The notes under the pieces: model-generated
Database searches by the model: none
Told to the model about the DNA's origin: nothing
The model's input: the letters and a program-made list of their open reading frames with translations, nothing else
Shown: piece by piece, positions 10,951 to 29,817 of the stretch
Layout of the letters: every line of letters begins with the position of its first letter
How positions within the stretch are numbered: the stretch's first letter is position 1
Virus record (IMG/VR): IMGVR_UViG_3300027859_000051
Span: 1-33,446 of that record
Strand: one strand, 5' to 3'
DNA: 33,446 nucleotides
Source: a virus
Program-made: the position numbers and the translations under genes

Positions 10951-10977
10951 AATTTTATTTAAATGGGAAACATGTTT

Positions 10978-12381
10978 ATGCGTTTTAAAACTTTCACTAT
11001 ACAAGAAGCAGTCAAGCTAACCCCACAACAATTGGAAAAAAATAATTCCAAAACGGGTGAAGCCAGAATCGATATTCTTATGCGTCTTATTCAAGACAAA
11101 GTTCCTTTGGAACTTGCAAAAGGTGGAACGTTTAAAGTTGGTGATGAATACATTGATGACGCCATAGCACATTGTCAAAATTTTAAAAAAAATTCAGACC
11201 ATTACGGCAAATCTGGATTTCCTCTTACAGATAAAACTGGAAAGGAAATTAAATCAAACGATCTTGCTAAATCTAAAGTAATGGGTGGTGGAACCGGTGG
11301 CGCTGGTTCTGGTTCAAAAGATACCGCAAGGAACGAATCTCATAACGCATGTATGATGCGTGCAATGGTCGATGATGGTTGGAGTAATGATTTAGATCAT
11401 TTTGACGAAGCACGTATAGCAAAAGCGTATAAAGATAATGGTTCCAAACACATTGACATTAATACAGATCAAATATTAGAAGCACCAGATAACTGGGTTA
11501 TGTCTTCGTATGTTATATCTAAATGGTTAGCAAAAGAAGGATATATCCATAAAGGTCAAGTCTTCGACCGCGCGGGTCCGTACATGACTTTAATATATCA
11601 ATTAAAGAATATGGCTTATAAGAATAATGGATTTAAACCATTAAAAGATGATAAGTGGAACCCAGGTGATGTTTGGGCCGTAGAAAAAGGTATGGATGTA
11701 AAAAAAGAACTAGATGTTAGTTCTGTTGGCGCACTAAACGCTTCCATTATGAAATTGTTTAATGAAAGAAGATTAGTTGCTATCTCATTAAAGGGTCCAG
11801 AGAAAAGCGATCCTCCACCAAATAAAGAATATAATAACAAAGTACCACCAGAAACCCCAAGACATAAATTAAAAGCAATTGAACTAGAATCCAAAGGTGG
11901 AAACTTTTGGTCATCAAAAGGTATGACAATTGTTTATGATACTGGGGCTATGACATTTAAGGATAACTCTCCAGGTGATTCAAACAAAGCTGAAATAAAA
12001 GGTAAGAAAGCCAGAGGTGGTGGATTATCTTGGGGTATTATGCTAGACTTTATAAAAAGAACTGTTGGTAAAGCTCCTCCCGCACACGCGAAGGGTATTA
12101 AACCTAAAGCCAAGCAAATAGCAAAAGGTAATAGAAGAGCTACTAAATTAATGTTTGATTTATATAGTGAATTCTATAGGGGTACAAAATTTAAAGACTT
12201 TGAAGAAGAACTAAAGAAGAAAGATTGGACATGGATCTCTGCTAAACTTGGTGCTTTATATGTTGCATATTTCTTACAAAAGAATATAGGGCAAAAGGCA
12301 GATAACATTATGACAAACTTTGTTAACTATGCAGGTTCAAATATGACCGATTCTTCAACTTACATAAAGGTAGGAAAATGA
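10978..12381 (+). CDS. Late-type protein with capsid-targeting-like N-terminus and possible PD-(D/E)XK-like core
   Basis: ATGs at 10963, 10972 and 10978 are in frame. I prefer 10978 because it gives MRFKTFTIQEA, matching the capsid-targeting-like start of the genes that follow, and GGGAAA lies 7 bases upstream. The 467-residue product has a glycine-rich linker (MGGGTGGAGSGSKD) near residue 100. GDVWAV at 230-235 is followed about 35 residues later by LVAISLKG (Lys272). A D...SxK pair after an alpha-helical LNASIMKLFNERR is compatible with a degenerate PD-(D/E)XK nuclease. The C-terminus is basic. The first gene after a late-type promoter; the nuclease idea is tentative. Confidence 0.8.
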   Translation: MRFKTFTIQEAVKLTPQQLEKNNSKTGEARIDILMRLIQDKVPLELAKGGTFKVGDEYIDDAIAHCQNFKKNSDHYGKSGFPLTDKTGKEIKSNDLAKSKVMGGGTGGAGSGSKDTARNESHNACMMRAMVDDGWSNDLDHFDEARIAKAYKDNGSKHIDINTDQILEAPDNWVMSSYVISKWLAKEGYIHKGQVFDRAGPYMTLIYQLKNMAYKNNGFKPLKDDKWNPGDVWAVEKGMDVKKELDVSSVGALNASIMKLFNERRLVAISLKGPEKSDPPPNKEYNNKVPPETPRHKLKAIELESKGGNFWSSKGMTIVYDTGAMTFKDNSPGDSNKAEIKGKKARGGGLSWGIMLDFIKRTVGKAPPAHAKGIKPKAKQIAKGNRRATKLMFDLYSEFYRGTKFKDFEEELKKKDWTWISAKLGALYVAYFLQKNIGQKADNIMTNFVNYAGSNMTDSSTYIKVGK

Positions 12382-12755
12382 AATCATTTAAAGATAGACA
12401 TTTTGGATTACATGAGGGTAAAATGGTTCCTTTGGAACAACCTATGGTCGAGGCAGAATACCAAGGCGATAATGTTGAACTAAATAAACCAAGAAGAAGT
12501 TCAGGTCCAAAAAAATTCGTAGTATACGTAAAAGACCCTTCATCAGGAAACGTTAAGAAAGTTAATTTTGGAAACGCAAAAGATGTAGAAGGTGGAGACG
12601 TAAAAATTAATGACAAAGAAAGAGCTAAAGCTTTTTCGGATAGACATGATTGTCCGAATAAGAAAGATAAATTAGCTCCTGGATATTGGGCATGTAATTT
12701 GCCTAGATATGCTAAACAGTTAGGATTAAAAGGTGGCGGAAATTATTTCTGGTAA
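12378..12755 (+). CDS. Late-type protein with MKSFK start and Cys-containing C-terminus
   Basis: This 125-residue protein begins MKSFKDRHFGLHEGKM: a capsid-targeting-like start followed by an L-H-E|G site at about residues 11-14. The rest contains GPKKFVVYVKDPSSGNVKKV and RAKAFSDRHDC plus APGYWACNL, a two-cysteine motif with flanking aromatics. Proteins with this YVKD...KVNFG / RH.C...YWAC pattern are frequent in phages and seem to form a small stand-alone domain. It overlaps both neighbours (4 and 23 bases). Function unknown. Confidence 0.85.
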   Translation: MKSFKDRHFGLHEGKMVPLEQPMVEAEYQGDNVELNKPRRSSGPKKFVVYVKDPSSGNVKKVNFGNAKDVEGGDVKINDKERAKAFSDRHDCPNKKDKLAPGYWACNLPRYAKQLGLKGGGNYFW

Positions 12756-13005
12756 ACCTTATACCGAACAAGACGGTATCAGGACATTTAATGTTCAGGC
12801 ACCTGATAGTGAATATGTTTGGCATAGAGATAATTCAGATCGTGAAGTAGAAATACTAGAAGGAGAAGGTTGGCAATTACAAATAGAAGATTGTTTACCT
12901 ATGTTATTAAACGATGTTAAAAAGGTATTTATTCCAAAAGGGGTTTACCATAGACTAATAAAAGGATATAATACTTTAAAGGTACAAATAAATGAAATCA
13001 CTTAA
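12733..13005 (+). CDS. Small cupin-like protein
   Basis: This 90-residue protein starts with GTG at 12733, overlapping the gene before it by 23 bases. It contains YVWHRDNSDREVEILEGEGW and VFIPKGVYHRLIKG, the two conserved halves of a cupin beta barrel with candidate metal ligands (His, Glu and the second His). Such mini-cupins occur in many marine T4-like phages. No capsid-targeting start is present, unlike its neighbours. It could be a sugar- or amino-acid-binding barrel or an enzyme; the substrate is unknown. Confidence 0.8.
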   Translation: MAEIISGKPYTEQDGIRTFNVQAPDSEYVWHRDNSDREVEILEGEGWQLQIEDCLPMLLNDVKKVFIPKGVYHRLIKGYNTLKVQINEIT

Positions 13006-14227
13006 ACAATACATTCCGGAATCTAAGAATACTCACATGACACATATTGAGGATTTAGTTCTGGATGGTGGAGTTAAGGGAGCCAGACAGGCAATACTTG
13101 CCCTTCGATCACTAAGGGATATGCTTGCTGGGAATTCACCCACAACGGTAGACGTCACTGTGAAGTGGGACGGTGCTCCCGCCGTATTCGCGGGAATTGA
13201 TCCAAGCGATGGTCAATTCTTCGTTGCAAAGAAAGGGATCTTTGCAAAAACTGGGGCTAAGGTGTATAAGAATCATGATGACATTGATGCAGATACATCT
13301 GGCGATTTAAATAAAAAACTTAAGCTCGCATTTAACGAACTAAAAGATCTTGGGATAACAGGAGTTATACAAGGTGACTTTATGTTTGAAAAGAAAGATC
13401 TTAAGATAGAAAAAATAAATGGTATTAAACATTTAGTCTTTCACCCAAATACAATCGCTTATGCCGTACCGGTAAACACACCTTTAGCAAAAGAAATAGC
13501 TAAAGCAAAAGTAGGAATAGTATGGCATACATCTTACTCAGGCGCAAACTTTCAATCCATGAAGGCAGAGTTTGGTGGTAATATAACTAAAAAATTAAAA
13601 CAATCTAAATCTGTTTGGATGCAGGACGCAACATTACCTGGTACACAAGAAGCAGTATTAGATTCCAAAACAACAAAAGAAGTTACATTGGCATTATCAA
13701 ATGCTGGTAAAATGTTTCAAAAGATTAAGTCAGGTGTATTAAAAGAGATAGAAAGTAATAAAGAATTAAATATGGTTCTGAATATATTTAACAATACAAA
13801 GGTTAGAGAAGGAACTAGAATAACAGATACATCTAAACATGTTGACGAATTAATCGATTGGGTTAATAATCGTTACACAAAACAAGCAGATAAAATGAAA
13901 TCAGACAAAGGTAAAGCTGGCGTTGAAGCTAAAAAATCTGCAGTATTATCATTTTTCAGTAAAGAAAATAAGAAAAATCTGAAAAATGTCTTTGATTTAC
14001 AGAATTTTATTGTTGATAGTAAATTAATTATTATAAATAAACTAAACAGTCTCAGTAATATTGGGACGTTTGTAAAAACAAAATCCGGATTTAAGGTAAC
14101 CAACGCGGAAGGTTTTGTTGCCATAGATCGTACGGAAGGTGGAGCTGTTAAGCTTGTTGATAGATTAGAATTTTCTTTTAACAACTTTAGCAAAGATATA
14201 ATTAAAGGCTGGGATAATCCAGGCTAA
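12992..14227 (+). CDS. Ligase-like nucleotidyltransferase with KxDG motif (DUF6267-like), capsid-targeting start
   Basis: This 411-residue protein begins MKSLKQYIPES (I-P-E|S site). It then has TVKWDGAPAVFAG with Lys58 in a KxDG motif, the adenylated-lysine site of DNA/RNA ligases and capping enzymes. A QGDFMFE block (127-133) resembles motif III, and KVGIVWHTSYSG (about 165-176) resembles motif IV. A lysine-rich helical C-terminal part follows from about residue 230. If the motifs are functional, it transfers AMP to a nucleic acid end. It may be related to cyanophage DUF6267 proteins. A GC-rich codon island covers the KWDG region. The ligase homology is from motifs only. Confidence 0.83.
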   Translation: MKSLKQYIPESKNTHMTHIEDLVLDGGVKGARQAILALRSLRDMLAGNSPTTVDVTVKWDGAPAVFAGIDPSDGQFFVAKKGIFAKTGAKVYKNHDDIDADTSGDLNKKLKLAFNELKDLGITGVIQGDFMFEKKDLKIEKINGIKHLVFHPNTIAYAVPVNTPLAKEIAKAKVGIVWHTSYSGANFQSMKAEFGGNITKKLKQSKSVWMQDATLPGTQEAVLDSKTTKEVTLALSNAGKMFQKIKSGVLKEIESNKELNMVLNIFNNTKVREGTRITDTSKHVDELIDWVNNRYTKQADKMKSDKGKAGVEAKKSAVLSFFSKENKKNLKNVFDLQNFIVDSKLIIINKLNSLSNIGTFVKTKSGFKVTNAEGFVAIDRTEGGAVKLVDRLEFSFNNFSKDIIKGWDNPG

Positions 14228-14245
14228 ATGGGAATAACCGAGGAT

Positions 14246-14596
14246 ATGAAATCATTTAAAGAGTTTCATCAAACAGACGAGGCCTTGTCAATGGCAACTC
14301 GTATGAAGATGAAGGCAGCATTTAGAAAGAATAAAGCCAAGATCGCAATTGGTAGAAAGAAAGCTGCAAAAAAACTCGCATCCCCAGAAAAGCTCAAGTC
14401 AAGAGCAGTTAAGCAAGCCCGTAATTTAATTATAAAGAAGATGTTAAAAGGAAGAGATAAGTCTGAACTTTCTTTTGCCGCAAGAGGTGATTTAGAAAAG
14501 AAAGTATCAAAGAAGAAAGGTAAGATAATGAAACTTGCTAAGAAACTTCTCCCTGCCGTAAAAAAAGCTGATAAAGCAAAATTGAGAAAAGATTGA
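14246..14596 (+). CDS. Lysine-rich late-type protein with capsid-targeting-like start
   Basis: The preferred ATG at 14246 gives MKSFKEFHQTDEALS; an in-frame ATG at 14228 adds six residues and cannot be excluded. The 116-residue product is extremely basic: MATRMKMKAAFRKNKAKIA, then GRKKAAKK, and KKLLPAVKKADKAK at the end. Composition is like a DNA-condensing internal protein such as T4 IPI-IPIII. Its first 17 bases are identical to those of the gene at 12378. Homologous lysine-rich proteins occur in cyanophages. Likely packaged with DNA, by inference. Confidence 0.85.
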   Translation: MKSFKEFHQTDEALSMATRMKMKAAFRKNKAKIAIGRKKAAKKLASPEKLKSRAVKQARNLIIKKMLKGRDKSELSFAARGDLEKKVSKKKGKIMKLAKKLLPAVKKADKAKLRKD

Positions 14597-14597
14597 T

Positions 14598-15806
14598 ATG
14601 AAAGAATTTAAATCATTTAGTAATTATTTAAAAGAAAACACGAACGACGTAGTATTTGCATTTGGTCGATTTAATCCACCAACTATTGGTCATGAAAAAT
14701 TAATGGAAGCAGTAAAGAAATTAGCAAGAGGTGGAACATATAGAATATATCCAAGTCAATCTCAAGATGCTAAAAAGAATCCATTAGACTTTAAATTAAA
14801 AGTAAAGTTTATGAGAAAGATGTTTCCTAAACATGCTAGAAACATTATGGCTGATAAAGGAATGAGAACAGCATTTGATGTTATTGTTGCTCTATATGAC
14901 CAAGGATATACAAAGGTTACATTTGTAGCTGGTGAAGATAGAATCATAGAATTTAATAAACTCTTTAACAAATATAATGGTGTTAAAGGAAGACATGGCT
15001 TTTACCAATTTGAGAATGGGGTAAAGGTCGTAAGCGCGGGCGAACGCGATCCGGATGCCGAAGGCGCTACTGGTATGTCAGCTTCTAAATTAAGAGCGGC
15101 AGCCTCTGACAATAATTTAAAATTATTTGCTAAAGGTATGCCAAAAGGATTTAAAGAAGTAGAAAGCCTATTCAATGCAGTAAGAGCTGGTATGGGTTTA
15201 AAAGAATCCAAAGACTTTAGAAAACATGTACAGTTAGAAAAAGTTTCCGACAGAAGAGAAGATTATGTAAACGGAAAACTATTTAGAACTGGTGACGAAG
15301 TTATAATAAAAGAAACCCAAGAGGTTGGAAAGATTACAGTTCTTGGAGCTAACTATGTTATGGTTGATTTTGGAAATAGCAAAAGAAGGTGTTGGCTCGA
15401 AGATATAGAACTATTTGAATATTTAGAAACAATGGCTGGGGAAGATGGAACAAAGAAATTAGTTAAGAACTATAAGAAGATGACCCCAGGCGAAGGTATG
15501 AAAGAAACTAAAAAGTCTTTTAGGAGTTTCTTAGAAAAGAAAAAGAAAAGAGATACACATGGGGATAAGCTAAGAAAAGACTTTGAAGCTAATCCAGGTA
15601 AGGGAGATGATTCCACAGACGCTAAAAGAAGAGCACAGTTTAATAAGCAGGCAGAGATGGATGATGATAACCCAAGGGCATATAAAGATGCACCAGGGGA
15701 CAAAAAAGCTAGATCTAAACCTATGAAAAAGTCACAATATACAACTGCTTACCATAGAATGTATGGTGATAAGGAAAAAGAATTGGAGAAAAAGAAAAAG
15801 AAATGA
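14598..15806 (+). CDS. Cytidylyltransferase/NMN-adenylyltransferase-like protein fused to basic modules
   Basis: The N-terminal 200 residues of this 402-residue protein are a nucleotidyltransferase: after a MKEFKSFSNYLKEN start comes FGRFNPPTIGH (T29-x-G-H32, the HxGH-like site). VTFVAGEDRI lies near residue 120 and GMSASKLRAAA at 160-169, the equivalent of the ISSTxIR signature. A small beta domain with DEVIIKETQEVGKITVLG follows (about 230-280). A second capsid-targeting-like segment appears at about 301-315 after a GEG site. The end is lysine-rich with SQYTTAYHRMYGD. It likely makes a dinucleotide or activates a phosphate group; the fusion and the targeting start suggest packaging. Overlaps the next gene by 4 bases. 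Confidence 0.88.
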   Translation: MKEFKSFSNYLKENTNDVVFAFGRFNPPTIGHEKLMEAVKKLARGGTYRIYPSQSQDAKKNPLDFKLKVKFMRKMFPKHARNIMADKGMRTAFDVIVALYDQGYTKVTFVAGEDRIIEFNKLFNKYNGVKGRHGFYQFENGVKVVSAGERDPDAEGATGMSASKLRAAASDNNLKLFAKGMPKGFKEVESLFNAVRAGMGLKESKDFRKHVQLEKVSDRREDYVNGKLFRTGDEVIIKETQEVGKITVLGANYVMVDFGNSKRRCWLEDIELFEYLETMAGEDGTKKLVKNYKKMTPGEGMKETKKSFRSFLEKKKKRDTHGDKLRKDFEANPGKGDDSTDAKRRAQFNKQAEMDDDNPRAYKDAPGDKKARSKPMKKSQYTTAYHRMYGDKEKELEKKKKK

Positions 15807-16633
15807 AACAATTTAAACAACTAAGAGAAGGACTTTGGGCTAACATTCATAAGAAAAGAAAAGAAGGTCGTCCAATGAGAAAGAAAGGTGAGAAAGGCGC
15901 ACCAACAGCAGCTGCTATGGCTAAAGCAAAAGCTGGTTCCAAGAATGGAAGTACATCGATGGAAGCTGTTGAACAAGCTCTAACACAATTAGAAAAAGCA
16001 TACGATGCAAAAGATATAGCAAAGGTTAAAGTTTTAGAAAAGAAATTAGAAAAAATGCTTAAAGAAGTAGATAAGACTATGAAAGGTTCAGGTTTATCTG
16101 CACCGGCATTCTCAATGGTTCGTGGTGGTATCGTAAAAGGTCTTGAAGCTATAAAGAAATTCTATAGAATTGCAGACAAAAATGAAAGTGTTAATGAAGA
16201 CGGTATGATGTCAGTAAGAAAACAGAATATGTCTAAAGTTAAACCCATGTTATCTAAACTTGCACAGAAACATAAAGGTGTTACTTTAGATTTCGAAAAA
16301 GATGGTATTACCGTAAACTTTAAAGGAAAAGATAAAGACATTGATAATCTAATGAGAGATATGGAAAAAGACAAAAAGCTTATGAAGCTTATGGAGTTAA
16401 CAGAAGGAAAAGGTACAGATGCAGCTTTACAGAAAAAAGCTGATGCATCTGGTATTTCAAAAAGTATTTTAAAAAAGGTATATGATAGAGGATTAGCTGC
16501 TTGGAAGGTTGGACACAAACCAGGTACAACTCCACAACAATGGGGAATGGCTAGAGTAAACTCCTTCATAACAAAAGGTAAAGTTTGGCACAAGTATGAC
16601 AGTGACTTACGTAAACAACACCAAGGTAAATAG
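15803..16633 (+). CDS. Modular late-type polyprotein ending in a DUF5824-like domain
   Basis: This 276-residue protein begins MKQFKQLRE|G, followed by GLWANIHKKRKEGRPMRKKG, a short basic module that recurs in marine phages. A coiled-coil-like region (about 55-90) leads to V-N-E|D at 130-133, then a small module, then L-T-E|G at 199-202. The last 75 residues (ILKKVYDRGLAAWKVGHKPG, PQQWGMARVNSF) match the DUF5824 family. Each module boundary coincides with an [LIV]-x-E site, as expected of a prohead-protease substrate. Functions of the modules are unknown. Separate-protein versions seem to exist elsewhere, from memory. Confidence 0.82.
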   Translation: MKQFKQLREGLWANIHKKRKEGRPMRKKGEKGAPTAAAMAKAKAGSKNGSTSMEAVEQALTQLEKAYDAKDIAKVKVLEKKLEKMLKEVDKTMKGSGLSAPAFSMVRGGIVKGLEAIKKFYRIADKNESVNEDGMMSVRKQNMSKVKPMLSKLAQKHKGVTLDFEKDGITVNFKGKDKDIDNLMRDMEKDKKLMKLMELTEGKGTDAALQKKADASGISKSILKKVYDRGLAAWKVGHKPGTTPQQWGMARVNSFITKGKVWHKYDSDLRKQHQGK

Positions 16634-17983
16634 GTGAACGAAAAGTTAAAAGTTTCTGACGGTATAGGTGCTTGGATTAAAGACTTCATGAAGTCTGATG
16701 CTCCACAATTTGATGGTAAGAGTATGGACAGAAGAAGAAAAATGGCAATTGCGGCGTTTGTAGATGCCGGAGGAAAATTAAAAGAGGGTAAAATGAATAA
16801 CGAAGGTAAAATGGATGGATCAAAGTTAACTGGTCAAGAGATCAGTGTATACTTTCGAAAGAATCCAATAAAAGCGACAGATAAGAAATACGGCAAAATG
16901 TTAAAGAAAGCCGTTGAATTTGCACTAGACCACGGCGGAGCAATGAGCTACGCTATTAAAGGTATAGAGAAAATGGCGAGGGGTTTATCTAAACATCCCG
17001 AAGTTAAAAAAGCTTTAAGATATGCAAACGAAAGTGTACACCACGAATCAGTTTGGACTGTTAAGAATATTATACAGGAAAACTATACACGTAACTTTGA
17101 AACACTATGTCAAAGCTTAAAGTTAAATGGTATACAACAAAAGATCTTAGATGACTTTATTCACAAAGGAAGAATTAGAGATCAATACGTTGGACGTGTA
17201 GCTGGATCTAAAAAAGAATCTAGAGTATTTGCAGGTAAAAAGAAATTTACTGGAAGTATAGATAATAGAAACGAAGCTTTAACTCAAGCCCTCAAGGTTA
17301 ATGCTAAACAAAAATCTATACTTGATGCTTATCTAAAAACAGGTAAAGTGATTGGTAAGTACACAGGTTCAATGGCTGGATCAACAAAGACAACTAAAGA
17401 ATATAAAGGCTTTAGAGGATTTAAAGAACACTTTGATACTGAAACAATCTTTGAAACAAATCTAATTGCTGAAGGTATGAGTAAACCTATGACAATGAAA
17501 GATGTTAAAGCAATTGAGAAAAAGTATGGCGAAAAAATGAGTCCAGAAGAGGTAAAAGATTATTTAAGTACACAGGTAAGTCCGAAAGGATCAGCAAGAC
17601 CAGAAGCTTGGTTATCATTAAGTTATCCTGTAAGATCTGGGGATTATTACTTTGCTCTAATTGGAAAAGATAGAAACACCAATATTAAAAACAATATTAA
17701 AATGAATGACCAGCTTAAAAAAATGACTAAAGTATATGATGAACCAGATCCATTATACGACAACTTTATGGATTGGGCTTATAAAAATATTAAGAATTCA
17801 GGTGTTGGCGATACAATGTCAAGAGAAGAGATTTGGGCAGCTTGTTTACACATACTAAAAATGAGAGTAGCTACAGTTTACGTAAAAGAAGATGACTTTA
17901 AAGAATCTAAGTTTAAACAGTTATTAGCAAAATTTAAAAGAGGTTTTAGAAACCTAAGACCAAAATTTAAAAAGAAAGGATAA
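16634..17983 (+). CDS. Modular late-type polyprotein with an internal tandem repeat
   Basis: GTG at 16634 follows the upstream stop directly, with AAGGT about 8 bases before it. The 449-residue product opens with the module KVSDGIGAWIKDFMKSDAPQ, common in marine phages. L-K-E|G (49-52), I-Q-E|N (147-150) and I-A-E|G (278-281) sites separate parts. I-A-E is exactly the T4 internal-protein cleavage type. Residues 154-206 and 212-265 are two copies of one unit (LKLNGIQQKILDDFIHKGR versus LKVNAKQKSILDAYLKTGK, each followed by a VAGS/MAGS turn). The last module (281-449) is soluble with Trp and Tyr. Unlike its neighbours it lacks MKxFK. Role unknown. Confidence 0.82.
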   Translation: MNEKLKVSDGIGAWIKDFMKSDAPQFDGKSMDRRRKMAIAAFVDAGGKLKEGKMNNEGKMDGSKLTGQEISVYFRKNPIKATDKKYGKMLKKAVEFALDHGGAMSYAIKGIEKMARGLSKHPEVKKALRYANESVHHESVWTVKNIIQENYTRNFETLCQSLKLNGIQQKILDDFIHKGRIRDQYVGRVAGSKKESRVFAGKKKFTGSIDNRNEALTQALKVNAKQKSILDAYLKTGKVIGKYTGSMAGSTKTTKEYKGFRGFKEHFDTETIFETNLIAEGMSKPMTMKDVKAIEKKYGEKMSPEEVKDYLSTQVSPKGSARPEAWLSLSYPVRSGDYYFALIGKDRNTNIKNNIKMNDQLKKMTKVYDEPDPLYDNFMDWAYKNIKNSGVGDTMSREEIWAACLHILKMRVATVYVKEDDFKESKFKQLLAKFKRGFRNLRPKFKKKG

Positions 17984-17988
17984 TTATT

Positions 17989-19062
17989 ATGGCATATCAA
18001 ACATGGAAAGACGCATACAAACAAGTTGTATTGGATGAGGCAAAGGTTTCATATAAAATTGACCACATTAATTCAGTTGGTGACATAGAAAAAGAATTAA
18101 AAAGAGGTGATGCAAAAATTGTAAACACTAAATCAACAAGAGATGGTGTCATTGTACAATTTGATGTACCTTCTAGAAGGGCTCACGCTGAGTTAAAAAA
18201 ACTTGTTATGAAACATGATAAAGATGCTGTAATGGAAGGTAAAACCGATATGACTGCTATATCCTCTTGGAAAAAGAAATTAAAGGATGTAAAAGGTTTA
18301 ACTAAACAACAAATACAAATGTTAAGTACTTTACCAACACCAGTAATTACTTCTCTTATAAACCAAGTTGGTATGATTGTTGCTGATATGAGTGAAGATA
18401 TAAGTGAAGGTAAAAGAACAGATGGCGCAACATCCTTTATGTTTAAGAATGGTCCAGATTCTAAAAAGTTCTTAGCATACGCAAAAGATTTTAGAAAGGC
18501 AGAAAGATGGACAATGAATGGTTTATTCTTTGTAGATGTATATGATGTTAATAAACCAGTTGCTATAAAGTTAGCTAAGTTCCACAGACAGTTTTGGAAA
18601 GAAGATGTTAACGAAGGTATGAACATGAAACAGATCATGCGTAAACACGGAAGAGAGTTAAAGAAGGCCGTAAGAACTGGTAACTTAGAATTATCTGACA
18701 AAGCAGAAGAAGATCTACAACAATGGGTATTTGATAACGAACCCTATGTAGGTGATGACCCTGATGATTTTGACCAATGGTTAGATGATAATATAGAAGA
18801 TATTGTCAAAGGCAGAATTAAAGAAGTTAATGAAGGAATGGTTGATATAGAAAAAGCACGACAACTTCCTGATAAGATTCAAAAACAAATCATAGCTTTG
18901 AAAAAAGAATACGATAGAACATGGGACGGAGTATTTGTCCCTATGGGTAAAGAAGGAAGCTCACAAAGAAAAGAATATGAAAGAAGAGGTGCTTTATTCA
19001 AAGCAGCAAGTAAAAAATACAAAGATTTCCTAAAGAAACATAAAGTAGCAAATTTCAAATGA
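17989..19062 (+). CDS. Five-module late-type polyprotein with regular [LIV]-x-E-G junctions
   Basis: This 357-residue protein has candidate cleavage sites L-D-E|A (15-18), V-M-E|G (81-84), I-S-E|G (138-141), V-N-E|G (207-210) and V-N-E|G (280-283). They cut it into five parts of 57-75 residues. The second VNEG is followed by Met, and the first by MNMKQIMRKHGRELKKAV. That second-last module (RTGNLELSDKAEEDLQQW...DDPDDFDQWLDDNIEDIV) is a separate helical domain I have seen in other marine phage proteins. The start MAYQTWKDAYK is only loosely like the MKxFKxF signal. AAGGATAA precedes the ATG. Function unknown; see findings. Confidence 0.82.
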   Translation: MAYQTWKDAYKQVVLDEAKVSYKIDHINSVGDIEKELKRGDAKIVNTKSTRDGVIVQFDVPSRRAHAELKKLVMKHDKDAVMEGKTDMTAISSWKKKLKDVKGLTKQQIQMLSTLPTPVITSLINQVGMIVADMSEDISEGKRTDGATSFMFKNGPDSKKFLAYAKDFRKAERWTMNGLFFVDVYDVNKPVAIKLAKFHRQFWKEDVNEGMNMKQIMRKHGRELKKAVRTGNLELSDKAEEDLQQWVFDNEPYVGDDPDDFDQWLDDNIEDIVKGRIKEVNEGMVDIEKARQLPDKIQKQIIALKKEYDRTWDGVFVPMGKEGSSQRKEYERRGALFKAASKKYKDFLKKHKVANFK

Positions 19063-19349
19063 AAAAATTTAAAGACTTTAGAGAGAACGTAACATTTGCA
19101 AAACATAATTCTTATGTTGGTGCAAGTGATACTGATAATCCTTTAGATGAAAAATTGGTAGCTAGTGATATTAGTATATTAGATACTATTTTAAATAAGA
19201 TTAAAGATGATGTTATGAAGAATAAGTTAGCTGGTAAGTTTGAGAAAAGTTGGCCGATGATGCAGCAGTTAGCAAAAATGGCTGGGTATGGTATAACTAA
19301 AAAAGGTCAGCAAAAGAGTAAAACATACCAATGGAAATTAAAGAAATGA
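19059..19349 (+). CDS. Small late-type protein with MKKFKDF start
   Basis: This 96-residue protein overlaps the polyprotein gene by 4 bases and begins MKKFKDFRENV. An L-D-E|K lies at about residues 29-32. The rest is a helical domain with a winged-helix-like layout (ILDTILNKIKDDVMKNKLAG, WPMMQQLAKMAGYGIT) and a basic end. It may be a small DNA-binding internal protein, but no family is recognised. Confidence 0.8.
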   Translation: MKKFKDFRENVTFAKHNSYVGASDTDNPLDEKLVASDISILDTILNKIKDDVMKNKLAGKFEKSWPMMQQLAKMAGYGITKKGQQKSKTYQWKLKK

Positions 19350-19726
19350 AAAAGTTTAAAGAAGTAAGAAAAGAAACAAAGAAACCTACTCCATATATGA
19401 CATGGAATAATAAAAACTTTGGTGAAGGAACTATGTCTCAAGGTATATTTGACAAAGATATGGACAGAGCCAAAGACGCAGCAAGAAGTTTAGTTATGTT
19501 TCTTAAGTCTAACCAAGACGTAACAGTTGGTGGCAAACAAGATAAAGAAGGAAATCCAATCGAAGGTCCAAGCGACACATTAGATGGATATGTAAAAGAA
19601 CTTATGGGTTATGTGTTTGATGACAAAATGATAGATGAATTATTAAACGTTAAATCTAATAGCGGTAAAAAAGCAAATGATATTGTTGTTGTTAGATTAA
19701 AAGAAATGGGAGTCAGAATACACTAA
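19346..19726 (+). CDS. Small late-type protein with MKKFKEV start
   Basis: The ATG at 19346 makes an ATGA overlap with the upstream stop, which fits the coupling used throughout, and gives MKKFKEVRKETKK; an ATG 15 bases upstream is less likely. The 126-residue product contains WNNKNFGEGTMSQGIF, which looks like a module junction followed by a helix-rich domain (RAKDAARSLVMFLK, DGYVKELMGYVFDDKM). No known family is recognised. It ends in a TAATG overlap with the coiled-coil membrane gene. Confidence 0.8.
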   Translation: MKKFKEVRKETKKPTPYMTWNNKNFGEGTMSQGIFDKDMDRAKDAARSLVMFLKSNQDVTVGGKQDKEGNPIEGPSDTLDGYVKELMGYVFDDKMIDELLNVKSNSGKKANDIVVVRLKEMGVRIH

Positions 19727-20043
19727 TGGCAAAAATGACAGCAAACGAGCAAAGAGAACAACAGTCAGCTAGACTAGATAGGATTGAACAAAAGATTGAT
19801 AAGATGTCGGATGTAATTGTTGCACTCGCGAGGGCGGAAGAGAAAATAACTACCCTTACTAGCTTTAGTAAACAACAATCAGAAATGATTCAACACATGA
19901 CAATAAGGTTGGATAGGTTAGAAGCTGCTGTGCAGCAGAATGCTTCAACCATAAATATTATAAATAAACTGTTCTGGATAATAATCGCAGCTGCTGCAAC
20001 AGCGGTGACCGGAATGATATTTTTAGGATCTCCAATCCTATAA
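19726..20043 (+). CDS. Coiled-coil protein with C-terminal membrane anchor
   Basis: This 105-residue protein has a long heptad region (about 8-75, ARLDRIEQKIDKMSDVIVAL and further) and ends with one hydrophobic helix, LFWIIIAAAATAVTGMIFLG. A C-tail-anchored coiled coil of this size recurs in marine T4-like phages. It could form a membrane-bound oligomer at lysis or assembly, but nothing visible decides that. Start overlaps the previous stop (TAATG). No capsid-targeting sequence. Confidence 0.8.
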   Translation: MAKMTANEQREQQSARLDRIEQKIDKMSDVIVALARAEEKITTLTSFSKQQSEMIQHMTIRLDRLEAAVQQNASTINIINKLFWIIIAAAATAVTGMIFLGSPIL

Positions 20044-20073
20044 ATTTAATGCAATATAACGGGAGAAAAAACT

Positions 20074-20844
20074 ATGAAATTGCAAGATAAAGAGAACCTG
20101 GACATTGCATCCGCGGTCAGCGATGTTTTAGAAGGGAAAGTAAAAAAAGAGGAATTTAAACCTCACATGATGTACCACCCAGACAACGGTAAAGAAGTTC
20201 ATGTTAAGTCGAAAGAAGAACATGAAAAATATGCCGCTAAAGGTTGGGTTCACGAAAAACCTAAAATGGAATCACCTGAAGAGCCAAGAGCAAAAGGCGA
20301 AAAGGAATTTAAAGATAAGCATTCTGTTAAAAAATCTGGTATGAGAAATGATGGTTCTAATATGAAAGAAGAAACCACAATCACACTAGAAATAGGTGAT
20401 GAAGAGCTAGATGAAGCTTCAAAACCAGGAAGAGGTAAAACTAAACTTGATATAGATTATATCGGTGATAGAAAACTTACAAAAGATGCTGAAAAGAAAC
20501 ACAAAATTAAAATCAAGCAAACTGGTAGAACAACTGCTGATGTTAGTGGCGAAAAGAAAAATATCGTAGCATTTATGAAAGACCCAGATATTATGGGAAT
20601 GGATGATATGGATTTAGAAGATCTATACCCAGAACTATATGAAGCTACTAAACAAGAAGGATATTTGGATGTTGAAGAAGGTGAAGAACTTTCTCCAAAG
20701 CAAAAAAAATATCAAGCATTCTTTAAGAAAGCTTTGAAAAAGTTTGGTGTTGAATCTCCATCTGAATTAGACGATGCTAAGAAAAAAGAATTCTTTAATT
20801 ACATAGACAAGAACTATGATGCAGGTGATGGGGAGACAGACTAA
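20074..20844 (+). CDS. Late-type modular protein (256 aa)
   Basis: GGGAG 8 bases before the ATG gives a good start. The product opens MKLQDKENLDIASAVSDVLEGKV, with V-L-E|G at about 18-21, then an acidic/basic low-complexity part including YHPDNGKEVHVKSKEEHEKY. L-D-E|A (about 112-115) leads into a small alpha/beta module (KTKLDIDYIGDRKLTKDAEK, IVAFMKDPDIMG). After a VEEGEEL junction comes the final module LSPKQKKYQAFFKKALKKFG plus SPSELDDAKKKEFFNYIDK, a domain widely present in phage proteins. It fits the modular pattern of this block. Function unknown. Confidence 0.8.
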   Translation: MKLQDKENLDIASAVSDVLEGKVKKEEFKPHMMYHPDNGKEVHVKSKEEHEKYAAKGWVHEKPKMESPEEPRAKGEKEFKDKHSVKKSGMRNDGSNMKEETTITLEIGDEELDEASKPGRGKTKLDIDYIGDRKLTKDAEKKHKIKIKQTGRTTADVSGEKKNIVAFMKDPDIMGMDDMDLEDLYPELYEATKQEGYLDVEEGEELSPKQKKYQAFFKKALKKFGVESPSELDDAKKKEFFNYIDKNYDAGDGETD

Positions 20845-21119
20845 TGAAAACATTTTTTGAATTTAGAGACGAATCAGCTGAATTGTCAGAAGGCAAATTA
20901 ATGGTTAAAGCTTTCGTGGGTTCAGAAGGCGGCGGACCATCTTATAAAAAGTTTGGACTTAAACTTAAGAAATTAGGTTCAAGCCAATATGGTGGAGATG
21001 ACGTAGAATTATCTGGGCCAGACGCTAAACTTATGAAATTTGCAATTGCTGCATTAGGAGTTGAAAAACCTAAGAATCTTAAGGATGCACAAAAACAAAT
21101 AGATGACCAAGGTCCATAA
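20844..21119 (+). CDS. Small late-type protein with MKTFFEF start
   Basis: This 91-residue protein starts MKTFFEFRDESAELSEGKL: the capsid-targeting-like stretch, then L-S-E|G at 14-17. The remaining 75 residues form one small domain (MVKAFVGSEGGGPSYKKFGL, with a final FAIAALGVEKPKNLKDAQ helix). It starts on the last base of the gene before it. The 40-base gap after it holds a possible promoter. No function known. Confidence 0.8.
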   Translation: MKTFFEFRDESAELSEGKLMVKAFVGSEGGGPSYKKFGLKLKKLGSSQYGGDDVELSGPDAKLMKFAIAALGVEKPKNLKDAQKQIDDQGP

Positions 21120-21144
21120 GTTTTAATTAACCGCTCTGACAGAG

Positions 21145-21157
21145 TGTATATATAATA
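21145..21157 (+). promoter_or_regulatory. Candidate second-class promoter element TGTATATATAATA
   Basis: The 13-mer lies two bases before the ATG at 21160 and is identical to one at 23568-23580, also right before an ATG. It includes TATAAT and resembles the T4 late -10 box. No -35 of the P1-P7 type is present at 17 bp. A small palindrome CTCTGACAGAG (21134-21144) lies just upstream. Confidence 0.4.
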
Positions 21158-21159
21158 GT

Positions 21160-21528
21160 ATGAAGGTTTTTGATAAATTGACAAATAAGAACTTTGAGAT
21201 GTTCGCAGCTCATTATTATAATAATCCAGAATGCATGGATATAGATGAGTTTAAAGAAGATCTTTCTAGGTTTAAGTATTTAAAAAGATTACTGAAAAGG
21301 TATGAAACCGACGGTGATCTACAAGAAAGATTAATATTAAATCATTTAATTGTTCTATATAATGTGTTTGGTATTAAACCATGTAATAGAATGATGTGGT
21401 TTAAAATCAACAATGAACACTATCATTACATAAAACCTTTCTTAGTATTTTTACATTATCTGCCAGAAGATGAGAAAGTTGAAATTGGTATGGATCCAGA
21501 GATTGTAGAGAGACTAAGAAACTTATGA
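21160..21528 (+). CDS. Conserved phage protein (FKEDLSRFKYLKRLL family)
   Basis: This 122-residue protein has FKEDLSRFKYLKRLLKRYETD, then LILNHLIVLYNVFGIKP, and MMWFKINNEHYHYIKPFLVF followed by YLPEDE. This pattern recurs almost unchanged in many T4-like phages (a DUF7207-type family). Location in the late block suggests a role in morphogenesis, but its function is not known. The ATG at 21160 has no Shine-Dalgarno sequence and follows a TATAAT-containing element by two bases, so the mRNA may be leaderless. It overlaps the next gene by 4 bases (ATGA). Confidence 0.85.
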   Translation: MKVFDKLTNKNFEMFAAHYYNNPECMDIDEFKEDLSRFKYLKRLLKRYETDGDLQERLILNHLIVLYNVFGIKPCNRMMWFKINNEHYHYIKPFLVFLHYLPEDEKVEIGMDPEIVERLRNL

Positions 21529-22190
21529 GATGGACAACAAAACATATACAGCAGTTAAAAGAGGGGTCAATCTCCCGTTTGGCCGATACTGCTTATGCAC
21601 TGAGATTTCTTAGACTTTTAACTATGCCTTGGGAAAAGACTGAGGCATTTAAATTAGGTATCATAGACAAAAATGGTCGAAGAACAGAGTATAGAGATTA
21701 CTCTGCTTCTACTGTTGGCAGAATGGAAAGAACACCAATTGATACTCCTAAAAAGAAAGCCGCATACACTGTATTCCATAAATTAGTTTTTAATCTAAGA
21801 AGAATCCTAGCTAAAATCCCATTTGGTAAAACCGTAGTTGCAAGATACGGCGCAGCACTTTATCTTATAAAAGAACATACAAATATGAGTGAGAAACAAT
21901 TACGTAAGATAATGGATAAAGTGGAAACAGAATTTGATTGGGATAATTTACAATTAGAAGAAAGTACTTGGTTCCAATCTATAGATGGTAAATTAAATCC
22001 AGGTTCATACGTATTAGTAAATGATATAGCTTCTCCTTTAACTGGTGAGCTAATAGCAAAATCTAATTCTAGAATTAAAGTAGAAGAACAATTAGAACCA
22101 TGTGATACATTTTTAGGTTCATCAATCTATAAGGTAAAACACCAAACAGGTCAACACATTTTTATTACAAACCAGGACATAGTAAGATGA
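21525..22190 (+). CDS. Conserved late phage protein with capsid-targeting-like start
   Basis: This 221-residue protein opens MRWTTKHIQQLKEGSISRLA with L-K-E|G at residues 11-14. It continues with the well conserved phage block ADTAYALRFLRLLTMPWEKT and AFKLGIIDKNGRR. FHKLVFNLRRILAKIPFGK and ARYGAALYLIKEHT follow. The C-terminal third is beta-rich (GSYVLVNDIASPLTGELIA, IYKVKHQTGQHIFIT). It overlaps both neighbours as ATGA. Similar proteins occur across marine T4-like phages with no known function; a structural or packaged role fits its place. Confidence 0.83.
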   Translation: MRWTTKHIQQLKEGSISRLADTAYALRFLRLLTMPWEKTEAFKLGIIDKNGRRTEYRDYSASTVGRMERTPIDTPKKKAAYTVFHKLVFNLRRILAKIPFGKTVVARYGAALYLIKEHTNMSEKQLRKIMDKVETEFDWDNLQLEESTWFQSIDGKLNPGSYVLVNDIASPLTGELIAKSNSRIKVEEQLEPCDTFLGSSIYKVKHQTGQHIFITNQDIVR

Positions 22191-23578
22191 TAACAGTAAT
22201 ATGCCTAACAAAATCCGAAGGTGACGATAAGAATGATACTGTTTATAAGTTAGAAAAACAAGCACAAAAACGTGGCATTTCTTTTTATAAGGTTAGTCTT
22301 GGCGAAGCATTTGTAATTGATAATGATCTATTTGGTGATAAGATTACTATACACAACTTTGATGGTGAAGGTAATAAGATTAATATTAAACCTTCCGAGA
22401 CCGCGTGCATCGTGCGCGGAGGCGCGCTTACAGATATAGCCGGAAGAGGATTAACTAAATCATTAGAAGAAGCTGGTATGTTTATGATTAACAGATACGT
22501 ACCAATGGAACTATGTGCAAATAAATTTACATCATCTATTGCACTTAAAAAAGCAAACATTAATACACCAAGAACAGCATTAGTTACAAACGAACAATCC
22601 ATTGATATTGCAATGAAAGAGATTGGTGGTAAACTTCCAGTTATAGCTAAAACCATAACCGGTGCAGAAGGTATCGGTGTTATGAAGATTGAAAGCAAAG
22701 AATCGCTTACTTCAGTCTTACAAGGTTTATGGAAACATAACGCAGAAATTATCCTACAAGAATATATGGATATTGAATACGATGTACGTACATTAGTATT
22801 AGATGGAAAAATATTTGCTGCTATGAAACGTAAACAAACAACTAAAGATGATTTTAGAACAAATAAATCATTAGGTAATGATTATGAACCATACGATTTA
22901 AGTGAAGAAGAACAAAAAATCGTATTAAAAGCAGCAGAAACAAGTGGATGTTATTGGTGCGGTGTTGATACAATTGTTAACGATGGAAAGGTATACGTAT
23001 TAGAAGTCAACGGTTCTCCAGGTACAGGAGATAGTAATGAGATAAGTTATATGAATTACTATGGAGATAAAAAGACTAAAGTAAATGGTTCTAAAATGGT
23101 TGATAACCTTTTAAACTATATAGAGAACAAAGACAATTGGGCATTTCCTAAAACATCAGTTGGTGTTATAGAATGGTGTAAAGTTGAGGGAATGAAATTT
23201 AAAGCTAAACTAGATACTGGTAATTCTGCTGGTGGTATTAGTATACATGCCACAGATATAAAAGAAAAGAATGGTTCAGTATCATTTAAAATAAACGGAA
23301 AGACTTTTAATAAAAAGATAGAAGATCGTAAGATGATTTATTTTGGTGGTGGAGATAATGGTGAAGAAAGACTATTTGTTAAATTAAATATGTCTATTGG
23401 AAACCGTAAACCAAAACCAACATTATTTAATTTAGATAATAGAGAAGATGCTATTTACGATGTACTAATTAACAAAGGATACATGGCGGATGAGAACCTT
23501 GTGGTTGATCCATCTAAGAAATTTACGCTTGGAGAAAGTGTAAAACGTGTATCTACATTCAGGGAAATGTATATATAA
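22187..23578 (+). CDS. RimK-like ATP-grasp ligase fused to a retropepsin-like domain
   Basis: This 463-residue protein has an ATP-grasp ligase in residues 1-300: PVIAKTITGAEGIGVM (ATP loop), IILQEYMDIEYDVRTLVLDG, and metal ligands E273 and N275 in VLEVNGSPGTGD. This is the RimK family, which adds glutamate to protein C-termini (S6 in E. coli). From about residue 325 a second domain begins: KFKAKLDTGNSAGGISIHAT, with D343-T-G, the retropepsin-like DTG of the RimK-associated protease family (Zn_protease/DUF785). Here the two are one chain. The end (FTLGESVKRVSTFREMY) has an L-G-E|S site. Substrate could be a phage internal protein or a ribosomal protein. It overlaps the previous gene by 4 bases. 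Confidence 0.88.
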   Translation: MITVICLTKSEGDDKNDTVYKLEKQAQKRGISFYKVSLGEAFVIDNDLFGDKITIHNFDGEGNKINIKPSETACIVRGGALTDIAGRGLTKSLEEAGMFMINRYVPMELCANKFTSSIALKKANINTPRTALVTNEQSIDIAMKEIGGKLPVIAKTITGAEGIGVMKIESKESLTSVLQGLWKHNAEIILQEYMDIEYDVRTLVLDGKIFAAMKRKQTTKDDFRTNKSLGNDYEPYDLSEEEQKIVLKAAETSGCYWCGVDTIVNDGKVYVLEVNGSPGTGDSNEISYMNYYGDKKTKVNGSKMVDNLLNYIENKDNWAFPKTSVGVIEWCKVEGMKFKAKLDTGNSAGGISIHATDIKEKNGSVSFKINGKTFNKKIEDRKMIYFGGGDNGEERLFVKLNMSIGNRKPKPTLFNLDNREDAIYDVLINKGYMADENLVVDPSKKFTLGESVKRVSTFREMYI

Positions 23579-23580
23579 TA
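23568..23580 (+). promoter_or_regulatory. Candidate second-class promoter element TGTATATATAATA
   Basis: Identical in all 13 bases to the element at 21145-21157, and ends one base before the ATG at 23582. It overlaps the stop region of the ATP-grasp gene. Function as a promoter is inferred. Confidence 0.35.
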
Positions 23581-23581
23581 T

Positions 23582-23770
23582 ATGGACTTTAAAACTTTTA
23601 AACAAATGTGGGAAGACGCTGCAGCCAATAGCGTAGGTGCTGGTGGTATAGATGGCATTGGAGTTGGTCCAAAAGGTGAACCAGGTGTTCATGTAAACAA
23701 AAAGAAAAAGAAAAAGGAACAAGAAATTCTTATTAAGATGCAGCGTAGATTGATGAATGGAAAGACTTAG
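23582..23770 (+). CDS. Small protein with MDFKTFKQMWE start and poly-lysine stretch
   Basis: This 62-residue protein begins MDFKTFKQMWEDAAANSVG, a variant of the capsid-targeting-like start. A glycine-rich part follows (GAGGIDGIGVGPKGEPGVHV) and then a run of six lysines and a basic tail. Proteins with this VGAGG.dGiGVGP.GEPGV layout occur in other marine phages. It ends inside the next gene (14-base overlap). Probably a small internal protein; function unknown. Confidence 0.75.
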   Translation: MDFKTFKQMWEDAAANSVGAGGIDGIGVGPKGEPGVHVNKKKKKKEQEILIKMQRRLMNGKT

Positions 23771-24382: not shown

Positions 24383-24866
24383 CGGATGCTCCATATTAGG
24401 AGAAAAAAGAATAGAAGTACAATCTAAACCTGTACAAATAGATATTATGCAACCACAATTACCAAGACCGGTGGAATTAACTGCACCAAAATGGTATGTG
24501 GTTTCAGAAGCACGTATAACTAATCCGTGTAAAAAGACTATTCCATTCGATCCACCTAAGTTTAATGATAAGGGTGAAGAAGAATTAAAAAGACCTAAAA
24601 CCTGTGCTAAAGAGGATACCGAAAATCCAGATTGGCCAGATGGTTATACATATCTAGACAGATTTCTAGATGATATGAAAGAAGTAAACAACGGAGAAAT
24701 TGTATTCGTTGCCACAACAGTAGGAGACTATAAAGTTATGGCAGAAGATATGCAGGAACTAAAAAGGTATATCAATCAATTAGGTGAAGTAGTTATCTAC
24801 TATCGCAATGTAACATTACCCAACGGCGATAAAGGTGTTGGGGCGAAAATTGAGGTTAAAGACTAA
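24333..24866 (+). CDS. Lipoprotein, o-spanin candidate
   Basis: The N-terminus MTLKNFSILILLTTIISGCS has a typical lipobox I-S-G-C with Cys19, so the mature protein is anchored in a membrane, probably the outer one. At 177 residues it is longer than classical Rz1 proteins and has a folded-looking domain with CKKTIPFDPPKFNDKGEEE, TCAKEDTENPDWPDGYTYL and a final strand YYRNVTLPNG. It starts 50 bases inside the coiled-coil membrane gene and ends in TAATG with the lipase gene. O-spanin role is inferred from the arrangement. Confidence 0.72.
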   Translation: MTLKNFSILILLTTIISGCSILGEKRIEVQSKPVQIDIMQPQLPRPVELTAPKWYVVSEARITNPCKKTIPFDPPKFNDKGEEELKRPKTCAKEDTENPDWPDGYTYLDRFLDDMKEVNNGEIVFVATTVGDYKVMAEDMQELKRYINQLGEVVIYYRNVTLPNGDKGVGAKIEVKD

Positions 24867-25624
24867 TGGCAACAACAAGGCATAAAGAAGAAAAGACCCA
24901 ATTGGAAAGAGCACTCATTGCTGCCAAACTATCTGCACACGCATATAAAAGTGAAAAAGCCGCAGTTAACGCAGTAAAGAAAATGGGATTTCCATGGGCA
25001 AAGTTAATCTCCAGAGATGGAGCAGAGGTATTAGTAGCTAAAGATAGGAACGATCTTTGGTTTGCTTTTAGAGGTACAGAACCAAGTAAGATTAATGATG
25101 TAATGGCAGATTTAAATCTTATTAAAGGTGCTGCAAAAGCAGGTGGTAAAGTACACAGTGGATTCCAAAAAGAAGTAAATGATTTATGGATGGACGTTCT
25201 AGCAGAGATTGAACATAACGATCAATTGAAAGTTAGAAAGGACGTTTATATGACTGGACATTCTTTAGGAGCAGCAATGGCAACTATCGCAGCTACAAGA
25301 TATCAACCATACGAATTATTTACTTTTGGTTCTCCAAGAGTAGGTGGACCTAGGTTCATAAGACATATCAAATGTCCACATCTAAGGTTTATGAATAACA
25401 ATGACATAGTTTGTCGTATACCACCAGCATGGTTAGGTTTTAGACATCACGGCGAAATGATTTACTTTAACGCTGTTGGTGACCAACAACCTAAACCAAC
25501 TTGGAAGGATTTATTATTAGGAGTATTAAACTCATGGAAGAGATTTAAATTCTTTGATGGTATAGTAGATCACGGTATTCCAAACTACGTTAAAGCTATT
25601 CAAAAATTAATTAAGGCTCAATAA
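24866..25624 (+). CDS. Class 3 lipase (alpha/beta hydrolase)
   Basis: This 252-residue protein contains the nucleophile elbow TGHSLGAAMATIAA with Ser133, FRGTEPSKINDVMADL earlier (oxyanion region), FTFGSPRVGGPRF, FMNNNDIVCRIPP with the catalytic-type Asp, and DHGIPNYVKAI with the His. This is the full class 3 lipase (PF01764) pattern, so acyl-ester or phospholipid hydrolysis is expected. No signal peptide is visible. It lies in a coupled group with the spanin-like pair, so a role in breaking membranes at lysis is the natural inference. A phage class 3 lipase is uncommon. Confidence 0.9.
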   Translation: MATTRHKEEKTQLERALIAAKLSAHAYKSEKAAVNAVKKMGFPWAKLISRDGAEVLVAKDRNDLWFAFRGTEPSKINDVMADLNLIKGAAKAGGKVHSGFQKEVNDLWMDVLAEIEHNDQLKVRKDVYMTGHSLGAAMATIAATRYQPYELFTFGSPRVGGPRFIRHIKCPHLRFMNNNDIVCRIPPAWLGFRHHGEMIYFNAVGDQQPKPTWKDLLLGVLNSWKRFKFFDGIVDHGIPNYVKAIQKLIKAQ

Positions 25625-29376: not shown

Positions 29377-29817
29377 ATGAGAGAATTAGGATACGTATTA
29401 ACTGGATGCTTTGCATTTGTTTTATTTTTTTCAACGTTTATATATCCACAACTGGAATATAAGAATGTGAAAAACAACAGTAGTTGTACAGGAGAATGTT
29501 ATGAAGAATATGTTAAAAAATATGGTACAGTGGTTGAACAGCTTCAGGCCAAACAAGAAGCAGCAATGGAAGATCCATTTAGTTCCATTAGAGGACTTTG
29601 GTCGGGATGTGCAGCGTGCCATGGACAAACAGGCGAGGGAATGGGAGTCTTTCCCAAACTTGCCGGACAAAGTTCTGAATATGTATCTCAAAGACTATAC
29701 GCATACAAGAACAGAGAAACGGTAGGCAATATGTCTTCCACCATGTGGGCACAAGCTGGTATGCTTAGTGACCAAGATATAAAAACATTATCAGAATTTA
29801 TTGAAGTAGAACTATGA
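29377..29817 (+). CDS. Membrane-anchored c-type cytochrome
   Basis: This 146-residue protein has an N-terminal membrane helix (YVLTGCFAFVLFFSTFIYP), a periplasmic linker and a single cytochrome c domain with CAACH at 78-82. GEGMGVFPKLAGQSSEYVSQ follows, then the likely axial Met in GNMSSTMW (Met119 or 123) and LSDQDIKTLSEFI. It resembles class I cytochromes of the c4/c5/c552 type. It needs host cytochrome c maturation. It follows nrdB by six bases with AAGGA upstream and overlaps a small membrane gene. A phage cytochrome c would feed electrons in the host respiratory chain (inference). Confidence 0.92.
   Translation: MRELGYVLTGCFAFVLFFSTFIYPQLEYKNVKNNSSCTGECYEEYVKKYGTVVEQLQAKQEAAMEDPFSSIRGLWSGCAACHGQTGEGMGVFPKLAGQSSEYVSQRLYAYKNRETVGNMSSTMWAQAGMLSDQDIKTLSEFIEVEL

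Follow-up and report, generated by a model that had tools for sequence, protein, structure and literature searches.

The gene at positions 17989–19062 (plus strand) of the window, meaning the whole stretch of 33,446 nucleotides analysed here, probably encodes a polyprotein of five internal head proteins of 6–9 kDa each, which in a T4-like, Kyanoviridae-like phage would be targeted to the prohead, cut there by a gp21-type protease of family S77, retained with the DNA and ejected. To judge from the alignment of related contigs, phages of this kind add, drop and exchange modules precisely at the short [VIL]-x-E sites that separate them. The window is a 33.4-kb piece of a marine T4-like virus genome (IMG/VR record IMGVR_UViG_3300027859_000051), and both homology and the gene order (UvsX-like protein, primase-helicase, DUF6267 protein, cytidyltransferase, modular genes and ribonucleotide reductase, RNR) place it among the Kyanoviridae and marine T4-like phages, with synteny shared with C48C1, Melnitz, HTVC008M, S-PM2 and S-SM1.

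Sites and modules of the 17989 product

The 357-residue product, of which an identical copy is encoded in IMGVR_3300009550_000089 (L002), is composed of an N-terminal peptide and five modules. The sites listed in the initial annotation are all present (LDEA at 15, VMEG at 81, ISEG at 138, VNEG at 207 and VNEG at 280), with the cut-site Glu at E17, E83, E140, E209 and E282 and pieces of 17, 66, 57, 69, 73 and 75 residues. These five [VIL]xE[GA] sites compare with 0.54 in shuffled sequence (P of five or more = 0.00015), and the even spacing that had been pointed out earlier likewise stands out upon shuffling (P = 0.0002 for five parts this even). All five fit the gp21-type motif [LI]-x-E, although with Val at P3 in three of them.

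Residues 1–17 (17989–18039; MAYQTWKDAYKQVVLDE, ending LDE/A, where the slash marks the putative cut) constitute a candidate capsid-targeting propeptide, with counterparts in the same place in the related locus L005 (MAHRTWKEAYKQSIGLKE/A) and in a sister contig (MGYKRLTDLYIDIVE/G); it does not share the MKxFxxF pattern seen in the neighbouring genes and fits a T4-type targeting sequence only loosely. The four remaining sites lie, on the plus strand as are all modules, at 18229–18240 (VME/G, E83), 18400–18411 (ISE/G, E140), 18607–18618 (VNE/G, E209) and 18826–18837 (VNE/G, E282). Each of the five parts that they delimit occurs in other protein contexts in related phages, where homology begins or ends at the site. 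M1 (residues 18–83; 18040–18237), for instance, has a homologue inside a 564-aa protein of L016, between IKE/ and LQE/, and M2 (residues 84–140; 18238–18408) has 13 non-redundant homologues in other contexts, among them one in L071 placed after MKTFKQHINE/. M3 occupies residues 141–209 (18409–18615), and for the acidic, three-helix M4 (residues 210–282; 18616–18834; pI 4.5) IMG/VR yields 51 distinct contexts on the upstream side. The basic M5 (residues 283–357; 18835–19059; pI 10) is known from 16 IMG/VR loci and stands elsewhere as an 88-aa gene of its own (L006), at the end of a 668-aa protein (L004) or behind an unrelated M2-like part (L005).

The AlphaFold model of the whole product (mean pLDDT 78, pTM 0.40) shows five compact units, of which M1 and M3 are predicted to adopt a beta-alpha-beta-beta-alpha fold, ferredoxin-like in M1, and M2, M4 and M5 to be helical. 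Confidence drops below a pLDDT of 50 at residues 8–16, 84–88, 129–142 and 206–208, so that four of the five sites lie in or next to such a segment. The structural check proposed with the initial annotation thus turned out favourable in most places, the domains mostly meeting at low-confidence linkers at the sites, but the M1 helix continues, at low confidence, through E83. The model supports the predicted boundaries, short of proof; since the folding alignment (A3), which held no rows from deposited phage records, had the M4 ends and one M1 row misplaced, MAFFT having misplaced short module fragments, it is taken as secondary evidence only. Foldseek returned no match to the model at E ≤ 0.001 in either PDB or BFVD. 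The weaker matches were mostly generic ferredoxin-like designs in PDB and, in BFVD, some 66-aa phage proteins (TM 0.77 at most, on a single domain), and the fold gives no functional clue because these matches are generic or uncharacterised. No homologue of the whole protein was found among 50,697 phage records, nor of the M4 and M5 consensus sequences among deposited phage records; M1, M3, M4 and M5 were not found in any cultured phage in the phage-record searches. The protein had no match in PHROG and a single sub-threshold match in Pfam, with no domain above the cut-off.

A Met does follow both VNEG sites directly, as had been noted, yet its interpretation as the start codon of a once-separate gene is not supported. 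The search for stand-alone modules recovered M5 and M4 as genes of their own, of which the M5 gene (L006) begins farther upstream, with the targeting peptide MKTFDEIREQNKLKEMLNMKKAREL, and the M4 genes likewise begin upstream, with short targeting-like peptides (MKTFKELREAR in L132, MKSFNEYLLNE in L135); nor is a Met conserved at the M4 edge (GKKIQD, AKKIQD, EAKMKD). The same Met was considered as an internal translation start and rejected, since it varies across M4 contexts, and the upstream starts of the inspected stand-alone M4 and M5 genes also disfavour that possibility.

Module exchange at the sites

At the N-terminal edge of M4, [VILM]xE is present in 32 of the 51 distinct contexts versus 2.1% of control positions, the motif there being imperfect or missing in about one third, and at that of M5 it is present in 10 of 10 versus 3.1%; with many loci coming from overlapping marine metagenomes, these counts are of distinct contexts and not of independent events. 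At the C-terminal edge of M4, a Glu is found in all 25 internal copies but in only 3 of the 13 that end their protein (P = 6e-7, an optimistic value, as the copies are not fully independent). The Glu is lost where M4 is terminal and therefore belongs to the junction signal rather than to the module.

When 604 proteins were scanned for homology breakpoints irrespective of any motif, Glu came out as the commonest residue at P1. L, M and V were favoured two positions before it, at P3, and at P1', directly behind [VILM]xE, the residues A, K, D and G ranked high. An initial breakpoint test over all proteins had given a 2–3-fold enrichment, diluted by unrelated proteins, and was replaced by these residue-resolved and module-specific tests. 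Among the junctions, P3 was Val in 15, Leu in 14, Ile in 11 and Met in 4; it is often Val, whereas L or I is described for T4 gp21.

The exchange itself can be followed in a sister contig (IMGVR_3300009550_000529, L097) that is 99.8% identical to the window across 3.4 kb. Identity ends at 17436 and restarts at 18235, the codon of E83: the 798-bp stretch 17437–18234, comprising the end of the upstream gene 16634 and the start of 17989 with M1, is replaced by 56 bp. The sister gene consequently begins MGYKRLTDLYIDIVE/GKTDM, with a different propeptide, the same Glu-Gly joint and no M1, and the sister homologue of 16634 ends in KEHFEKG and a stop codon, without the C-terminal module that follows IAE/G in the window. 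M3 shares 87.0% nucleotide identity with its sister counterpart, against 98.8% and 97.9% for the flanking M2 and M4, and such a divergence implies that this middle module has been exchanged too. A third contig, from the same metagenome, matches the window version at 100%.

The gene cluster and its link to prohead processing

The surroundings of 17989 are of the same kind. Across the 14 proteins of the cluster at 10963–23770, 20 [VIL]xE[GA] sites were counted where 5.6 are expected, the maximum of 500 shuffles being 14, and for control genes from elsewhere in the window the count is 11 versus 10.2 expected; the excess is a trait of the whole cluster and is absent from the remainder of the window. 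The conserved anchor gene of the cluster encodes the DUF6267 protein (12992–14227, plus strand; PF19782, 1e-99), present in 406 phage records.

The further sites named in the initial annotation (VNED at E132 and LTEG at E201 in the 15803 product, LKEG at E51 and IAEG at E280 in that of 16634, LSEG at E16 in that of 20844) are likewise present and, as proposed, separate modules, given that they coincide with the module boundaries of homologues. The 449-aa product of 16634–17983, on the plus strand like the other genes of this paragraph, carries a C-terminal module that recurs after FLAE/ in L015, L016 and L071. The 276-aa product of 15803–16633 consists of MKQFKQLRE/ followed by a basic GLW, an alpha/beta and a DUF5824 module, the last of which is encoded by its own gene in C48C1 and, in HTVC008M and Melnitz, forms one protein with the cytidyltransferase; confidence in the model of this protein falls before E132 and not at E201. 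The gene at 12378–12755 encodes MKSFKDRHFGLHE/ plus one module, which is also a separate gene in C48C1 and the last part of a 650-aa protein in Melnitz, and that at 20844–21119 encodes MKTFFEFRDESAELSE/G plus one 75-aa module, which closes a 356-aa protein of L071 after VKE/. Finally, the cytidyltransferase-like protein of 14598–15806 has the targeting-type start MKEFKSF and is 43% identical to SSM1_190 (T4-GC190), which begins KKFSAFLNEAER after the first residue and was detected in S-SM1 virions (PMC3037559).

Two short units recur. The basic module of ~40 aa (GLW-NIH-KR--G--MRKPGEKGAPT) occurs in many unrelated cluster proteins (the N-terminal part of the 15803 product, L005, L087, L140, L071 and others), usually with a targeting-like peptide or an xE/EG junction immediately before it. 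A cysteine module of ~23 aa (C-W-x-G-Y-K-Q-V-G-T-K-x-K-x-G-K-x-V-P-N-C-V-P) is a short repeated unit between sites in L006:3958–4776, L010:14914–16866 and L009:16688–18031.

In T4, gp21 cuts after the Glu of L/I-x-E and strips capsid-targeting propeptides of 10–19 residues from the internal proteins (IPs; PMC9026906); T4 ipIII begins MKTYQEFIAE/A and ipI MKTFKEFTSTTTPVSTITE/A. Genes of the present cluster begin MKTFFEF, MKKFKDF, MKQFKQL, MKEFKSF and MKSFKDR, and at ~80 DUF6267 loci such targeting-like starts are found in 32% of the ORFs within 8 kb downstream versus 4% upstream. Starts resembling the T4 targeting sequences (MKTYQEFIAE, MKTFKEF) are thus found in the neighbouring genes, where they end in the same [VIL]xE motif, and in stand-alone copies of M4 and M5 (MKTFKELREAR, MKTFDEIRE). 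A protease of family S77 (PF03420) is encoded by the cultured phages C48C1, Melnitz and HTVC008M, as well as by each of the four contigs above 130 kb that carry M4, and the major capsid protein gp23 carries LTE/A at residue 57 in the sister contig and LSE/A in Melnitz. The protease is documented in relatives with complete or near-complete genomes and the matching gp23 site in the sister contig and Melnitz, the 33-kb window being a fragment with neither gene. The S77 prohead proteases of L101, L102 and L103 themselves begin MKLI and carry I-[TAV]-E/A at residues 16–17, and this start is, from its sequence, likely an autoprocessed propeptide.

Other genes of the window add to its coding content. 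At 29377–29817, directly behind NrdB, lies a phage gene for a c-type cytochrome with the heme motif CAACH (PF00034, E=1e-8) and a hydrophobic segment at its N terminus, possibly an auxiliary metabolic gene. One 463-aa protein (22187–23578) combines a RimK-like ATP-grasp domain (PF08443) with a putative retropepsin-like Zn_protease domain (PF05618), and a class-3 lipase-like protein (24866–25624; PF01764, 4e-20) adjoins small lipoprotein-like genes. An asparagine synthase-like protein (PF00733) and an AhpC/TSA peroxiredoxin (PF00578), the latter annotated in C48C1 too, are encoded at 3308–4633 and 5129–5641, respectively.

Proposed mechanism, alternatives and known systems

According to the proposed mechanism, the whole chain would be translated from gene 17989 and brought into the prohead core by its N-terminal ~17 residues, as in T4. 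The S77 protease, once activated in the prohead, would then cut after the Glu of [VIL]-x-E, yielding the freed propeptide and five mature modules of 6–9 kDa, which would stay with the packaged DNA. The least certain step is the last, in which the modules would be ejected and act in the host, as T4 IPI–III are ejected. The initial annotation had proposed a polyprotein with cleavable linkers; separate modules are indeed joined and swapped at protease-type sites, and cleavage itself is what we infer. With one and the same short protease site at the end of every junction, modules could be added, lost or traded among phages while leaving their neighbours unharmed. Such junction-bounded exchange would make the locus at 12.4–21.5 kb an exchangeable cargo cassette, which most likely serves early infection or counter-defence, and by analogy with the T4 IPs the most likely role of the modules is that of cargo of this sort.

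The main rival to this reading as internal head proteins is a scaffold or core polyprotein, whose sites the prohead protease would also cut but whose modules, like gp22, gp67 and gp68, would be pieces of the assembly core, with fragments that for the most part exit the head and play no role in the host. It is unlikely: T4 core proteins are fragmented by gp21 (PMC9026906), M4 is acidic as core proteins are and the modules have no recognisable enzymatic domain, but the assembly core is conserved among related phages, unlike modules that are rapidly gained, lost and swapped. The modules are, moreover, of opposite charge (pI 4.5 to 10.0), and their compact predicted folds of ~60–75 aa have the size of T4 IPI*, an injected restriction-enzyme inhibitor with 76 residues when mature (PMC3012670). 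Still less probable is an ordinary multidomain protein that works uncut as one chain, its small domains being shuffled via flexible, incidentally Glu-rich acidic linkers. Shuffling of domains through linkers is common, and the M4 edges without a perfect motif and the predicted helices that cross sites in the 17989 and 15803 models are compatible with it; the loss of Glu from terminal M4 copies, the specific pattern of hydrophobic P3 and Glu P1, and the recurrence of the motif at the gp23 cleavage position of the sister contig and at the close of the neighbours' targeting-type starts argue against it. Chance recurrence in Glu/Lys-rich proteins is hardly credible: the motif is short and the control genes match it as often as expected, but chance is contradicted by the site numbers in 17989 and its cluster, by the coincidence with the M4 and M5 boundaries and by the Glu pattern of internal and terminal M4 copies.

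Beyond the single gene, there is about an even chance that a general cargo polyprotein system exists among marine T4-like phages, in which dozens of families of small modules bounded by prohead-protease sites would recombine, as interchangeable cassettes, between polyproteins and stand-alone genes, a single targeting signal delivering mixed injected proteins for host takeover or counter-defence. If so, one rule, a cut after [VIL]xE with cargo between the cuts, would divide hundreds of "hypothetical" proteins from abundant ocean phages into correct functional units, explain their patchy homology and point to a large set of small injected proteins.

Eukaryotic RNA viruses typically make polyproteins that are cut into separate cargo. 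To the knowledge of the initial annotation, a phage polyprotein of such a kind had not been described; this remains so for cargo cut by a prohead protease in the open-access literature searched, which is not proof of novelty, but not for multi-site cleavage as such, long known from the action of gp21 on T4 gp22, gp67 and gp68. In these proteins one precursor is likewise cut at several LxE sites, into several fragments each, but what results are structural fragments, most of which exit the head (PMC9026906), in contrast to the autonomous, exchanged units described here. In phiKZ and SPN3US, the prohead protease (gp175 or gp245, respectively) cuts internal, ejected proteins after xxE, several times in each; however, those cuts trim one long propeptide to leave one mature protein, the motif is S/A-x-E and the sequences are unrelated (PMC10052503). 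Polyvalent proteins resemble the present system in their mosaic of domains on one chain, their delivery together with the DNA and the analogy to polyproteins already proposed for them (Iyer et al. 2017, PMC5512222), but they are large and enzymatic, and any cutting of them is the work of an embedded metallopeptidase (PMC5512222), whereas 17989 has small modules, none of them a Pfam-recognised enzymatic or effector domain, and a motif of the prohead-protease type.

The closest counterpart is the IP system of T4. Sequence homology of 17989 to T4 IPI, IPII or IPIII was not detected in PHROG, Pfam or the 50,697 phage records, and T4 uses one gene and one propeptide per IP, whereas here up to five or more cargo modules share a chain with internal sites. 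Both systems have a short N-terminal targeting peptide ending in [LI]xE, mature parts of ~60–80 aa, a highly diverse cargo of fast turnover in which only the targeting and cleavage signals are conserved, and a T4-type protease and gp23, known in the present case from the genomes of relatives. By this analogy, 17989 would work like the T4 IP system without being a proven member of it.
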